The position numbers were made by a program, and so were the translations under genes. Below the pieces are notes generated by a model. It had not been told where the DNA came from and searched no databases. It saw only the letters and a program-made list of their open reading frames with translations. Positions 10,411-14,968 of a stretch of 64,000 bases of DNA are shown here, piece by piece. The stretch lies in the NCBI RefSeq assembly GCF_900103715.1, contig NZ_FNHL01000001.1, positions 849,295 through 913,294 on the forward strand. The letters are read 5' to 3'. Source of the stretch: Halogranum gelatinilyticum. Its GTDB lineage: Archaea; Halobacteriota; Halobacteria; Halobacteriales; Haloferacaceae. How positions within the stretch are numbered: position 1 is the stretch's first letter; each line of letters starts with the position of its first letter.

Positions 10411-11121
10411 TCACGCCACCGAGAGCACCGCGTCGGCTACGGAGCCGACGACTGTCTCCCAGACCGAGAAGCCGGTCGTCAGCGCGAGCACCGTGTCGGC
10501 GGCGAAGAAGGCGAACAACGCCGCCGCAAACTGGTGGGCACGCTCGAGGTCGAACCGGTGGGAGAACCGGTGGAAGAGGTAGGCGTTCGCGAGGCTGACC
10601 GGGATGATGGCGAGCATCTCGCCGACCCAGATGGCCGGGCTCGCGCCGTACTGGATGGCGAGCCCGATGGTGACGAGCTGGGTCTTGTCGCCGAACTCGC
10701 CCACGGCCATCATCACGAAGATGGGGAGGAAGCCGCCCGCGGCGTTAGAGAGGTCGTAGCCCGCGACCGTCGGCAGGTCGATGTCGGGCGACGTTGCGAG
10801 TCCACCGTCGGTCTCGGCCGCGACTTCGCTGGGGGTGGCGTGGTCGTCCGGGGCGGAGCGCCACAACAAGACGGCGAAGACGGCGAAGAGGAGCGCGGAG
10901 ACGCCGTCGAGCACCGCAGAGGGAAACGCGGTCTGGAGTGCCTCACCGAGCCAGATTTCGAGGGCCGTCCAGCCCGCGAAGGCGGTACCCGCGGCACTCA
11001 CGACGACGAGCGGGCTGTAGCGCGTCGATAGGCCGGCGATGATGAACTGGACCTTCTCGCCGGGGAGGACGGCGAGTTGGGCGACGAAGGCGACGACGAC
11101 GATCTCGGCGAAGCTGACCAT
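10411..11121 (-). CDS. TMEM165/GDT1 family cation transporter
   Basis: A 236-residue membrane protein made of two three-span halves. The second half has the diagnostic GEFGDKTQ motif (Glu142, Asp145, Lys146). In the first half the equivalent position reads VLPGEKVQ (19-25), lacking the E-x-G-D order. GDT1/TMEM165 proteins move Mn2+ or Ca2+, usually against protons. The start lies six bases after the stop of a DtxR-type regulator, so the two form an operon, which supports a Mn/metal-homeostasis role (inference). Confidence 0.9.
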   Translation of the reverse strand: MVSFAEIVVVAFVAQLAVLPGEKVQFIIAGLSTRYSPLVVVSAAGTAFAGWTALEIWLGEALQTAFPSAVLDGVSALLFAVFAVLLWRSAPDDHATPSEVAAETDGGLATSPDIDLPTVAGYDLSNAAGGFLPIFVMMAVGEFGDKTQLVTIGLAIQYGASPAIWVGEMLAIIPVSLANAYLFHRFSHRFDLERAHQFAAALFAFFAADTVLALTTGFSVWETVVGSVADAVLSVA

Positions 11122-11127
11122 CCCTCG

Positions 11128-11835
11128 TTAGGCCCCGTTGGCCTCGGCGGGTGTCGACTCCTCGTGCTCGTCGGGTGCGTCGCTCACGCGGATGGACGCG
11201 GCGACTGCGTCGGGAAGGCTCTGCTCGTGTTCCTCGCCGACGGCGCGGACGGTCACCATCCCGAAGGGGGCGACGTCGACCACGTCGAGGGTCGTGCCGG
11301 GGACGACGCCCGCGGCTTCGAGATACTCCAACTCCTCGTCGTCGCGGTCGCTGACGCGGGCAACGACGACGCGGTCGCCGACGTCGTGTTCGCTCAACGG
11401 CGTGGTGTCGTCGTGGCCCAGCGGTTCGAGGTCGGCACCGGGGATAGGGTCGCCGTGGGGGTCGACCGTGGGATTGCCGAGCAGGTCGGCGACCCGCCGC
11501 TCGAACTCCTCGCTGATGTGGTGTTCGAGCCGGTCGGCCTCCTCGTGGACCTCGCTCCACGAGTAGTCGAGATGTTCGGTCAGATAGGCTTCCAGAAGGC
11601 GGTGGTGTCGCAGGACTTCGAGCGCGACCGTCTCGCCCTCGCGAGTCAGCTCGACGCCCTTGTACTTCTCGCGGTCGACCAGGCCGCGCTCTTCGAGCTT
11701 GCCGAGCATACTCGTGACCGTCGGCGGCGTCTTGTCGAGATAGTCGGCGATGTCGGAGGTCGACACCGGCGGGCCGTGTTTGCTCTGGAGGGTGTAGATC
11801 GCCTTCAGGTAGTCCTCCATCACGTCGCTCAACAT
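11128..11835 (-). CDS. DtxR/SirR family metal-dependent transcriptional regulator
   Basis: A 235-residue repressor-type protein. It has an N-terminal winged helix (MLSDVMEDYLKAIYTLQ, DIADYLDKTPPTVTSMLGKL), the DtxR metal-binding and dimerisation domain (HHRLLEAYLTEHL, EADRLEHHISEEFE), and a C-terminal SH3-like FeoA domain (about 140-220). The histidine and glutamate ligands expected for Fe2+/Mn2+ sensing are visible. The ATG at 11835 gives the family's usual N-terminus; an in-frame codon nine residues upstream is an alternative. It leads an operon with the GDT1 transporter and may regulate it. Confidence 0.9.
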   Translation of the reverse strand: MLSDVMEDYLKAIYTLQSKHGPPVSTSDIADYLDKTPPTVTSMLGKLEERGLVDREKYKGVELTREGETVALEVLRHHRLLEAYLTEHLDYSWSEVHEEADRLEHHISEEFERRVADLLGNPTVDPHGDPIPGADLEPLGHDDTTPLSEHDVGDRVVVARVSDRDDEELEYLEAAGVVPGTTLDVVDVAPFGMVTVRAVGEEHEQSLPDAVAASIRVSDAPDEHEESTPAEANGA

Positions 11836-11885
11836 AGCCTGGATTAGACGTGTCGAACTCAAATAGTTGGTGGGTCGAAGACGGA

Positions 11886-13064
11886 CTAGATGCCCTTACC
11901 CATCAGGTGACTGCGCAGCAGGTCGGCGGTCTTGCCACCGGCTTCGGTGTTGAGCAGGACGACCGTCGCATCGTCACCGAACTCGTCGGCGAGGTCCCAC
12001 GCGCCCGCGGCGGCGACGCCGGGGTTGACGCCCATCTCGATGCCCTCGTAGCGGGCGGCCGAGTAGGCACTCTGCAGTGCGTCGTCGTCGGCGACGGCGA
12101 CGGCCGCGCCGTCGGTCGCCTCCAATGCTCGAAGGGCCAACTCGCCGCCTGCGGGGTCGGTGATCTCCAGTTCGCCACAGACCGTGTCGGGGTTCGTCCA
12201 CGGCTCGGGCGCGTCCAGCCCGCGCTCGAACGCGGTGGCGATGGGGGCACAGCCCTCGGGCTGGGCGGCGAACAGTCGCGGGACGTCGTCGACGAGACCG
12301 AGCGTCCGGAGTTCGCGGAAGCCCTTCTCGACGCCGACGAGGAACTCGCCCGTGCCCGTCGGGACGACGACGGCGTCGGGGACATCCCACTCCAGGCCCG
12401 CCGCGAGTTCGTAGGCAATCGTCTTCGCCCCCTCGTGACGGTAGGGCGTCGTGAACTCCTGGAGGTCGAGCCAGCCGTCGAGCACCTGTTCGGCCTTCGC
12501 CTCGACCGCGTCGGGGAACCGACCGCCGACGACGCGCATGTCGCCGCCGTGGACGTTCGTCATCGCCTTGTTCTGGAACGTCGAGCGCGACGGGACGAAC
12601 GAGTGGTGCCGGACGTTCGCCCGACCGGCGTAGGCGGCGAGCGACTGCGCGCCGTGGCCCGGCGCGGCGATGGTCGCGTCCTCCGCGTCCTGCTGCTTCG
12701 CCGCGGTCATCGCGACGGAGAAGCCGCGGTCCAGCGTCGTCCCCGTCGGGTTGCGGCCGTCGTCCTTGATGACCACGCGGCCGACGTCGAGTTCCGAGGC
12801 CAGTCGCGGGGCCTCGACGAGCGGGGTCGCCCCCTCGGCGGTCGTAATCGCCGCGTCGGCGGGGAACGGCAGCAGCGCGTCGAAATGCCACAGCCCCTCG
12901 TGCGGGCGACCTTCCAGGTCCGCGCGCTCGATGTCGACGGCGTCGTAGTCGTAAGCCGGGTCCAGCGGCGCGCCGCAGTCGGGACAGCGGCCGTGCGTGT
13001 CGACGCCGAAGACTTCCTCACAACTGGTGCATTCGAGACCGACGAACGCCTCCGTCGTGTTCAT
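11886..13064 (-). CDS. Threonine synthase-like PLP-fold protein lacking the PLP lysine
   Basis: A 392-residue fold-type II protein most like threonine synthase. It has an N-terminal zinc ribbon (CTSC at 12-15, CPDC at 27-30) and EGATPLVEAPRL (77-88), then KDDGRNPTGTTLDRG. Canonical enzymes read NPTGSFKDRG there, with Lys forming the Schiff base with PLP. Here the position is Leu111 (codon CTG). The phosphate/substrate loop is also altered (APGHGAQS, 134-141) and the C-terminus has LLNTEAGG. I infer loss of threonine synthase activity, or a changed chemistry or role. Haloarchaea carry several paralogues, so another copy probably makes threonine. Confidence 0.82.
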   Translation of the reverse strand: MNTTEAFVGLECTSCEEVFGVDTHGRCPDCGAPLDPAYDYDAVDIERADLEGRPHEGLWHFDALLPFPADAAITTAEGATPLVEAPRLASELDVGRVVIKDDGRNPTGTTLDRGFSVAMTAAKQQDAEDATIAAPGHGAQSLAAYAGRANVRHHSFVPSRSTFQNKAMTNVHGGDMRVVGGRFPDAVEAKAEQVLDGWLDLQEFTTPYRHEGAKTIAYELAAGLEWDVPDAVVVPTGTGEFLVGVEKGFRELRTLGLVDDVPRLFAAQPEGCAPIATAFERGLDAPEPWTNPDTVCGELEITDPAGGELALRALEATDGAAVAVADDDALQSAYSAARYEGIEMGVNPGVAAAGAWDLADEFGDDATVVLLNTEAGGKTADLLRSHLMGKGI

Positions 13065-13690: not shown

Positions 13691-14968
13691 ATGCAGGACG
13701 AATCCGTCGTCGTGGCCGGTGCGGGGCTGGCAGGACTGGTCGCCGCCCGCCGCCTCGCCGCGGCCGACGTCGACGTCACCGTCTACGAACGTCGCGACGA
13801 GGTCGGCGGTCGCGTGCGAACCGAACGCCGCGGCGGCTACCGCCTCGACCGGGGCTTCCAAGTGCTGTTCACCGCCTACCCGATGGTCCGCGCCGAGTTG
13901 GACCTCGACGCGCTCGACCTCCGGCGGTTCAAGCCCGGCGCGAACATCGCCCGCCCGGACAACGTCTCCGCGCTCTCGGACCCGCTGCGCGACCCCACCG
14001 CCCTCGTCCCGTCGCTCCGGAATCCGGAGATAACGACGACCGACAAGATGCGCACCCTCGCGCTCCGCCAGCACGTCACCGCGATGGAGGAAGACGAGTT
14101 CTTCACCGGCCGCGACATGAGTATCCGCCAGTATCTCCGCGAGTGGGGCTTCTCTCGCCAATACGTCGAGAACTTCGTCGCGCCCTTCTACGGCGGCATT
14201 ACGCTGGACCGCTCGCTGGGGACGTCGAAACACGTCTTCGAGTACACCTTCCGCGCGCTCTCGGAGGGCGGTATCGCCCTCCCCGCCGACGGGATGCAGG
14301 CCGTCCCCGAGCAGTTGGCCGCGAACGCCCGCGACGCAGGAGCCGAAATCCGCCTCGGCGAACCCGTCGAGTCCATCGACGACTCGGGCGAGGGCGTGAC
14401 CGTCACGACGAGCGAGGGGACGGTCGAAGCGGGCGCGGCAATCGTCGCGACCGACCCGAAGCAGGCCCACGAACTGACCGGTGTCGACGCCATTCCGACC
14501 GAAGCCCGAAGCTGTGTCACTCAGCACTACAGCCTGCCCGCCCGCGAGGCACCCGACACGGGCAAGCGACTGCTGCTCAACGCGGGCGAGGCGTCACCGA
14601 ACACCGTCGTCAACATGACTGCCGTCGCGCCGGAGTACGCGCCGGGTGACAAGGAACTCTTGAACGCGACGTTCCTCGGCGAGGACGCTCAGAACCGCTC
14701 GGCCGAGGAACTCGAAGCGGAGACGCGCCGCGTGCTCGAAGCCTGGTATCCCAACGAGGACTACAGCGACCTCGAACGCGTCGAGACCCACCGTATCCCG
14801 TTCGCGCAGTTCGACCAGCCGCCGGGCGTCCACGAGACGCTGCCCGACACACGTAACGCGGGAGGGCGAACCTACCTCGCGGGCGACTACACCCGGTGGT
14901 CCTCGATTCAGGGCGCGATGCGCAGCGGCCGCGACGCCGCCGAAGCGGTCGTCTCGGACCTGTTCTGA
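13691..14968 (+). CDS. FAD-dependent amine-oxidase/desaturase-like flavoprotein
   Basis: A 425-residue flavoprotein. The Rossmann FAD motif VVVAGAGLAGLVAARRLA (6-23) leads to the second-strand ERRDEVGGRVRTE (33-45), the signature of the monoamine oxidase / protoporphyrinogen oxidase / phytoene desaturase superfamily. The C-terminal FAD contact YLAGDYTRWSSIQGAM is complete. Substrate is unknown: no carotenoid gene is adjacent, so it should not be called a phytoene desaturase. It is convergent with the E1-alpha gene, with three bases between the stops. Confidence 0.85.
   Translation: MQDESVVVAGAGLAGLVAARRLAAADVDVTVYERRDEVGGRVRTERRGGYRLDRGFQVLFTAYPMVRAELDLDALDLRRFKPGANIARPDNVSALSDPLRDPTALVPSLRNPEITTTDKMRTLALRQHVTAMEEDEFFTGRDMSIRQYLREWGFSRQYVENFVAPFYGGITLDRSLGTSKHVFEYTFRALSEGGIALPADGMQAVPEQLAANARDAGAEIRLGEPVESIDDSGEGVTVTTSEGTVEAGAAIVATDPKQAHELTGVDAIPTEARSCVTQHYSLPAREAPDTGKRLLLNAGEASPNTVVNMTAVAPEYAPGDKELLNATFLGEDAQNRSAEELEAETRRVLEAWYPNEDYSDLERVETHRIPFAQFDQPPGVHETLPDTRNAGGRTYLAGDYTRWSSIQGAMRSGRDAAEAVVSDLF

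Follow-up and report, generated by a model that had tools for sequence, protein, structure and literature searches.

The LCB1/SPTLC1 subunit of serine palmitoyltransferase has the fold of a pyridoxal phosphate (PLP) enzyme without the PLP lysine and is kept by selection; it belongs to fold type I and has a close, lysine-bearing paralogue as its partner. Within fold type II, the plant TSB-like pseudoenzyme is a PLP-family protein that has lost its own reaction and activates tryptophan synthase alpha (PMC12727527). Trypanosomatid deoxyhypusine synthase gives another pseudoenzyme precedent (PMC3663545), and a general review of pseudoenzymes is available (PMC10211241). In the literature that we searched, we found no description of a threonine synthase (ThrC)-like family lacking the lysine. 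We describe here such a gene in a window of 64,000 nucleotides (the whole stretch of DNA that was analysed) from the haloarchaeon Halogranum gelatinilyticum. Like LCB1/SPTLC1, its product is a lysine-less PLP-fold protein maintained by selection, and it differs from that subunit in being of fold type II and in that most genomes carry one close family member only. Whereas the key change in the plant TSB-like protein is an active-site Glu (PMC12727527), here the lysine itself and the PLP site are gone.

The reading frame starts with ATG and contains no internal stops (Table 1). Residue 111, in the motif NPTGTTLDRG, is Leu, and its CTG codon occupies plus-strand positions 12732-12734. The Pfam domain PALP (PF00291) matches residues 73-373 with an E-value of 6.5e-55, and an AlphaFold (AF2) model built with 65 relatives reached a mean pLDDT of 95.1 and a pTM of 0.94. 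By VIA Z scores, with which the Foldseek ranking agreed, the solved structures closest to this model are threonine synthases: 2c2b (Z 50.1), 6nmx (Z 47.1) and 1v7c (Z 46.8), the last of which contains a PLP-substrate analogue. These Z scores and the high pLDDT argue that the ThrC fold, as modelled, is intact. Compared with ThrC of Thermus (1uim/1v7c), Bacillus (6nmx) and Arabidopsis (2c2b), the protein shares the fold (Z 42-50), the PALP domain, the NPTGxxxDRG frame and the equivalents of Thr317 and Arg160. It differs in lacking the Schiff-base lysine, in the replacement of Asn87, GNAGN, Ala240, Asn154 and Ser155, and in scoring below the NCBIfam ThrC cut-offs (273.8 versus 303 for NF006050; 112.8 versus 167.1 for TIGR00260). 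A preliminary description of this DNA had given the gene the same coordinates, strand and undamaged frame, had read Leu111 in place of the PLP lysine and had judged the rest of the fold to be kept, and our data agree on each of these points. Its further statement that the zinc ribbon is well kept holds for the window protein (C12, C15, C27 and C30) and does not extend to its close relatives, as 24 of 50 members from the same family, the Haloferacaceae, lack at least one of these cysteines, including all Haloferax and Halorubrum sequences. Sequences that have partly lost them are L013, L014, L037-L040, L043, L056, L071, L083 and others of Haloferax, Halorubrum, Halobellus and Halogeometricum, while all 42 orthologues that retain the lysine (hereafter Lys-forms) keep the four. 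At the C terminus, the family hallmark is RSHLM(G/S)xG.

Table 1. Features of the lysine-less gene and its neighbours (positions in the window; clades and Lys-forms as defined in the text).
Feature	Position	Strand	Basis and distribution
Lysine-less threonine-synthase-like gene, 392 aa	11886..13064	-	ORF; PALP match; AF2 model; structure comparison
N-terminal zinc-ribbon-like segment, Cys12, 15, 27, 30	12975..13031	-	Four Cys in 42/42 Lys-forms and 52/78 of lysine-less clade I
NPTGTTLDRG, Schiff-base lysine motif	12723..12752	-	Codon 111 is CTG; aligns to Lys61 of 1uim
APGHGAQS, PLP-O3' asparagine loop; Asn87 to His137, Thr85 to Pro135	12642..12665	-	Alignment to 1uim
Glu203, new acid at Asn154 position (substrate phosphate site)	12456..12458	-	45/50 Haloferacaceae, 0/42 Lys-forms
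PTGTGEF, former PLP-phosphate loop (GNAGN in ThrC, GGGVG in Lys-forms)	12342..12362	-	Alignment
Glu240, inside PTGTGEF	12345-12347	-	50/50 Haloferacaceae, 0/42 Lys-forms
Glu298, new acid at Ala240 position, presumably adjoining the PLP ring	12171..12173	-	50/50 Haloferacaceae, 8/10 of the Natrialbaceae loss, 0/42 Lys-forms
Glu374, new acid beside Thr373 (Thr317 equivalent)	11943..11945	-	Glu/Asp in 47/50 Haloferacaceae, 0/42 Lys-forms
C-terminal tail RSHLMGKGI	11889..11915	-	Hallmark common to nearly all Lys-forms and lysine-less members
DtxR-family metal regulator with FeoA domain (SirR-like), 23 bp downstream	11128..11862	-	Pfam; adjoins 28/80 loci, with and without Lys
GDT1-family divalent cation/proton antiporter	10411..11121	-	Pfam PF01169; conserved neighbour
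Divergent flavin-containing amine oxidoreductase (phytoene dehydrogenase-like)	13691..14968	+	Pfam; adjoins 41/80 loci, with and without Lys

The positions of the cofactor and substrate site were assigned by alignment to the Thermus threonine synthase 1uim. In 1uim/1v7c we take Lys61 to be the PLP Schiff-base lysine, Asn87 to contact PLP O3', Asn154, Ser155 and Arg160 to be the substrate phosphate residues, GNAGN (Gly187-Asn191) to be the PLP phosphate loop, the Ala240 position to adjoin the PLP ring, and Thr317 to bind PLP N1. The corresponding residues in the window protein are Leu111 for Lys61, Pro135 for Thr85, His137 for Asn87, Gly138 for Thr88, Phe183 for Phe134, Glu203 for Asn154, Phe204 for Ser155, Arg209 for Arg160, Glu298 for Ala240, Thr373 for Thr317 and Glu374 for Gly318, with GTGEF in place of GNAGN. 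Thus the Schiff-base lysine and the contacts of Asn87 and the phosphate loop are absent, and one of the three substrate phosphate residues, Arg209, is kept. By this alignment almost the entire cofactor and substrate site is altered, with Thr373 and Arg209 retained. The segment APGHGAQS, which had been described as a changed phosphate/Asn loop, is indeed the altered Asn loop; the phosphate loop itself lies at residues 235-241, where PTGTGEF replaces the PVGNAGN of threonine synthase, and it is changed as well.

Protein searches gave matches in all 293 Halobacteriales genomes sampled, and about 278 of them (best E-values better than 1e-60) hold the orthologous family itself, beyond canonical ThrC. 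A scan of the genome collection with an alignment query returned 80 named loci, the nearest being from Halogranum rubrum (84%). Of the 132 distinct family members, 42 have Lys at position 111 and 90 have a different residue, so that Leu111 is not a matter of chance or sequencing error. The alignment of haloarchaeal homologues suggested in the preliminary description reveals that the lysine-less form is conserved in a very wide clade. Lysine-less sequences include all sampled main-copy Haloferacaceae sequences, the sampled Haloarculaceae, Halarchaeum, Halococcus, Halomarina and part of the Natrialbaceae. Lys-forms occur in Natronococcus, Halorussus, Haladaptatus, Halobacterium, Haloarchaeobius and others. 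Those of Natronococcus, Halorussus, Halobacterium and Haloarchaeobius are orthologous to the window protein, 53-58% identical to it, and share the RSHLM tail; Lys-forms and lysine-less forms also have common neighbours in several genera. The Lys-forms differ from the window protein in that Lys111, Asn137, GGGVG and Gly374 are retained throughout, or almost throughout, the 42 sequences. At their substrate residues they depart from ThrC, with Thr-Phe for Asn-Ser (203-204), GGGVG for GNAGN (237-241) and an added Lys213, and in view of these differences ordinary threonine synthesis is probably not their function either.

Phylogenetic trees were built without the active-site columns, one with 137 rows and a careful reduced one with 54. 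The larger tree has four changes between Lys and non-Lys states and the smaller five, all of them forced by supported branches, and a single origin was recovered in none of 200 bootstrap trees of the smaller one. The number of changes is independent of the root, and the state of canonical ThrC at this position is also Lys. As reconstructed here, the lysine was lost at least four separate times. Two losses are firm, that of clade I (78 rows, including the window protein) and that of a Natrialbaceae clade (clade II, 10 rows); two others, L061 (Asn) and L087 (Leu), are single-sequence losses, both from MAGs. The 54-row tree places the long, distant outgroup within the fast lysine-less clade, which we read as long-branch attraction because the larger tree, with its deep Lys lineages, roots among the Lys-forms.

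A full search of 22 genomes showed a single close family member in each of 20, plus canonical ThrC at about 36% identity; the exceptions are Halorubrum alkaliphilum, with a second, distant Lys copy, and Natrarchaeobius, with a 39% relative. Duplication followed by decay of one copy is therefore rejected as the general case. Since gene order is common to Lys and lysine-less forms, the lysine was lost in the resident gene. The preliminary description missed this feature, namely that the loss would have occurred in place and repeatedly, in an orthologue that has Lys in other haloarchaeal families, and not in an extra paralogue. The family is absent from one genome (G058, 99% complete), and in another the lysine-less gene appears frameshifted (G120:C1:549327-550555, L165), with an assembly error possible; this second genome, which comes from the same family as that of the window, also has the Lys paralogue. 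Because of the missing and the frameshifted copies, the family is not essential everywhere.

The residues of the PLP site were lost in a coordinated way. Among positions at least 95% conserved in Lys-forms, clade I lost 8 of 15 in the site versus 7 of 108 elsewhere (Fisher p 2.7e-5), and the independent clade II lost 5 of 15 versus 3 of 108 (p 6e-4). Some replacements recur, such as Gly298 to Glu (53/78 in clade I and 8/10 in clade II) and the loss of Lys213, mostly to Ala (49/78 and 8/10). At position 111 itself clade I has Leu in 37 of 78 sequences and otherwise Val, Ala, Thr, Tyr, Phe and others; the replacements being so varied, no single residue assumes the catalytic role. The possibility that another lysine had moved into the site, which the preliminary description had named as evidence against its reading, is rejected as far as conservation across the family alignment goes: no conserved Lys position was gained in lysine-less forms, and Lys 100, 166, 214, 247 and 378 are common to both.

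Close lysine-less pairs have dN/dS values of 0.07-0.22, against 0.07-0.18 in Lys pairs (Nei-Gojobori), and the lysine-less genes are under purifying selection. After loss of the lysine their rate of evolution was about 3-5 times that of the Lys sisters, with mean branches from the shared ancestor of 1.12 versus 0.29 for clade I, 0.27 versus 0.05 for clade II and 0.046 versus 0.015 for L061.

Four findings point to a cofactor-free pseudoenzyme: the PLP site was lost in a coordinated way, no replacement is preferred, the fold is kept, and selection is purifying. We consider it probable that the window protein is such a pseudoenzyme, that it arose in place from a threonine-synthase-like enzyme dependent on PLP, and that it keeps a non-catalytic role: it is an enzyme homologue without the lysine and most PLP contacts, in a gene that selection holds at the low dN/dS given above. 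Since an orthologue that is mostly single-copy has lost the lysine repeatedly, the Lys-form probably had the retained function already, and a non-catalytic one. A second, non-catalytic task of the ancestral protein would have been important enough to preserve the gene whenever catalysis was no longer needed. The window protein most likely acts as a regulator or scaffold and not as an enzyme. Repeated loss of a cofactor lysine, in place and in a conserved, mostly single-copy orthologue, offers a clean natural experiment, and the automatic label of threonine synthase is probably wrong for this orthologue in most haloarchaea. Selection for a function other than threonine synthesis had been proposed earlier and gains support from purifying selection, the wide lysine-less clade, the change of the whole PLP site and the presence of a canonical ThrC-like paralogue in the same genome. 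Of the three functions then suggested (pseudoenzyme, ligand sensor, PLP-independent activity), the pseudoenzyme fits best. Evidence counter to it is the retention of Thr373 and Arg209 in the window protein, and of Asn137 in most relatives though not in the window protein; with these residues the site could yet accommodate some ligand akin to PLP or to phospho-amino acids.

In the Haloferacaceae, the site has acquired a cluster of acids. When 50 Haloferacaceae sequences were compared with the 42 Lys-forms, only 4 of 274 non-acidic positions (203, 240, 298 and 374; Table 1) had become at least 85% acidic, and all four lie within the site (p 1.3e-5). Since the Lys-forms are also haloarchaeal, general acidification does not account for these acids. 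The old cofactor pocket may have been rebuilt as an acidic site, which could bind a cation (a divalent metal, a polyamine or a basic amino acid), or could replace the negative charges of PLP and substrate phosphate against the kept Arg209 and Lys214; such charge replacement would lock the fold in a closed, partner-binding state. We suggest tentatively, as a possibility short of an even chance, that the former PLP site is a new putative four-carboxylate cation site (E203, E240, E298, E/D374) and the protein a cofactor-free sensor or regulator, a use of the threonine-synthase fold not described in the literature searched. The ligand-sensor role suggested earlier would be compatible with this acidic cluster.

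The lysine-less gene is followed on the minus strand, over 10411-13064, by 23 bp, the DtxR/FeoA regulator, 6 bp and the GDT1 antiporter, a spacing from which a transcript shared with these metal homeostasis genes seems likely. A conserved order of divergent flavin oxidoreductase, ThrC-like gene, DtxR regulator, GDT1, LysE and Fe-ADH family genes is wholly or partly common to Lys-forms (Haloarchaeobius L074, Halobacterium L045, Haladaptatus L066, Halorussus) and lysine-less forms (Haloferax, Halobellus, Halogeometricum, Halogranum). In the flanks fetched, Halorubrum and Haloarculaceae loci are without metal-gene neighbours, and Halorubrum has the four acids. A metal role deduced from gene context is not specifically supported, as metal genes are found beside acid-less Lys-forms too.

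The model haloarchaeon Haloferax volcanii would allow the role of the protein to be tested directly. In that species, HVO_0817 is a flavin-containing amine oxidoreductase (PMC4300041) and SirR is HVO_0819 (PMC11349517); from the Haloferax gene order, the orthologue between them, HVO_0818, should be the lysine-less protein. A transposon-insertion mutant of thrC3 (HVO_2969) is rescued by Gly, Ser and Thr together (PMC4300041), so the other ThrC homologues of Hfx. volcanii do not fully replace thrC3.

A special case of the pseudoenzyme reading is that the protein is a catalytically dead subunit of a hetero-oligomer, activating or stabilising a Lys-containing ThrC homologue, much as LCB1/SPTLC1 or the plant TSB-like protein serve their partners. 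The ThrC fold family is dimeric, and Lys-containing ThrC paralogues are present in this genome and in others that were checked. Pseudoenzyme activators of such a kind do exist (PMC12727527, PMC3663545, PMC10211241); however, the candidate partners are about 36% identical and lie elsewhere in the genome, and we regard this arrangement as rather doubtful. At the other end, a gene without function, slowly decaying under relaxed selection, would account for the faster evolution after lysine loss, the frameshifted copy in G120 and the absence from G058, but it is highly improbable given a dN/dS of about 0.13 in lysine-less pairs of several genera, full-length intact frames in all analysed lysine-less sequences except the G120 copy, newly conserved residues reaching 50/50, and the very wide distribution.

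Two readings retain a chemistry or a cofactor. The protein might bind PLP non-covalently, by itself or as an adduct with an amino acid, and use it as a ligand or in catalysis: PLP-amino acid adducts are present in solved structures of fold type II enzymes whose Lys was mutated (1d6s, K41A OASS; K87T tryptophan synthase), Thr373 persists in the window protein and 41 of 78 clade I sequences, Asn137 persists in 58 of 78, and clade II retains more of the phosphate loop (Gly237, Gly239 and Gly241 each 10/10). Yet in the Haloferacaceae Glu240, Glu298 and Glu/Asp374 stand in place of a small or phosphate-loop residue adjoining the phosphate, ring and N1 of PLP and should repel the cofactor or collide with it, Gly/Asn238 of the loop has given way to Thr, Ser or His in most clade I sequences, and position 111 is unconserved, which together make such binding unlikely. 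It is likewise improbable that the four-acid pocket is a new catalytic site of a PLP-independent, for example metal-dependent, enzyme. In favour of such a site, the gain of acids is confined to the old active site, with little variation across the 50 sequences, and a metal regulator and a divalent cation antiporter lie next to the gene; but these neighbours also flank acid-less Lys-forms and are missing at the Halorubrum and Haloarculaceae loci, so that context does not track the acids, and the acids are specific to the Haloferacaceae whereas lysine loss is much wider.

Other ThrC-like paralogues were seen in the course of these comparisons. The genome of the window gene holds one at G000:C1:411977-412930 (L003), which has a shortened fold start (EYVFPTGSFKDRG) and keeps the lysine. 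In some genomes of Halorubrum, Halobaculum and their relatives there is also a distant second paralogue that has Lys, with the tail RAHLGERE or RSHLGARE (L129, L145, L146, L104, L106 and L113), in several cases beside the lysine-less copy.
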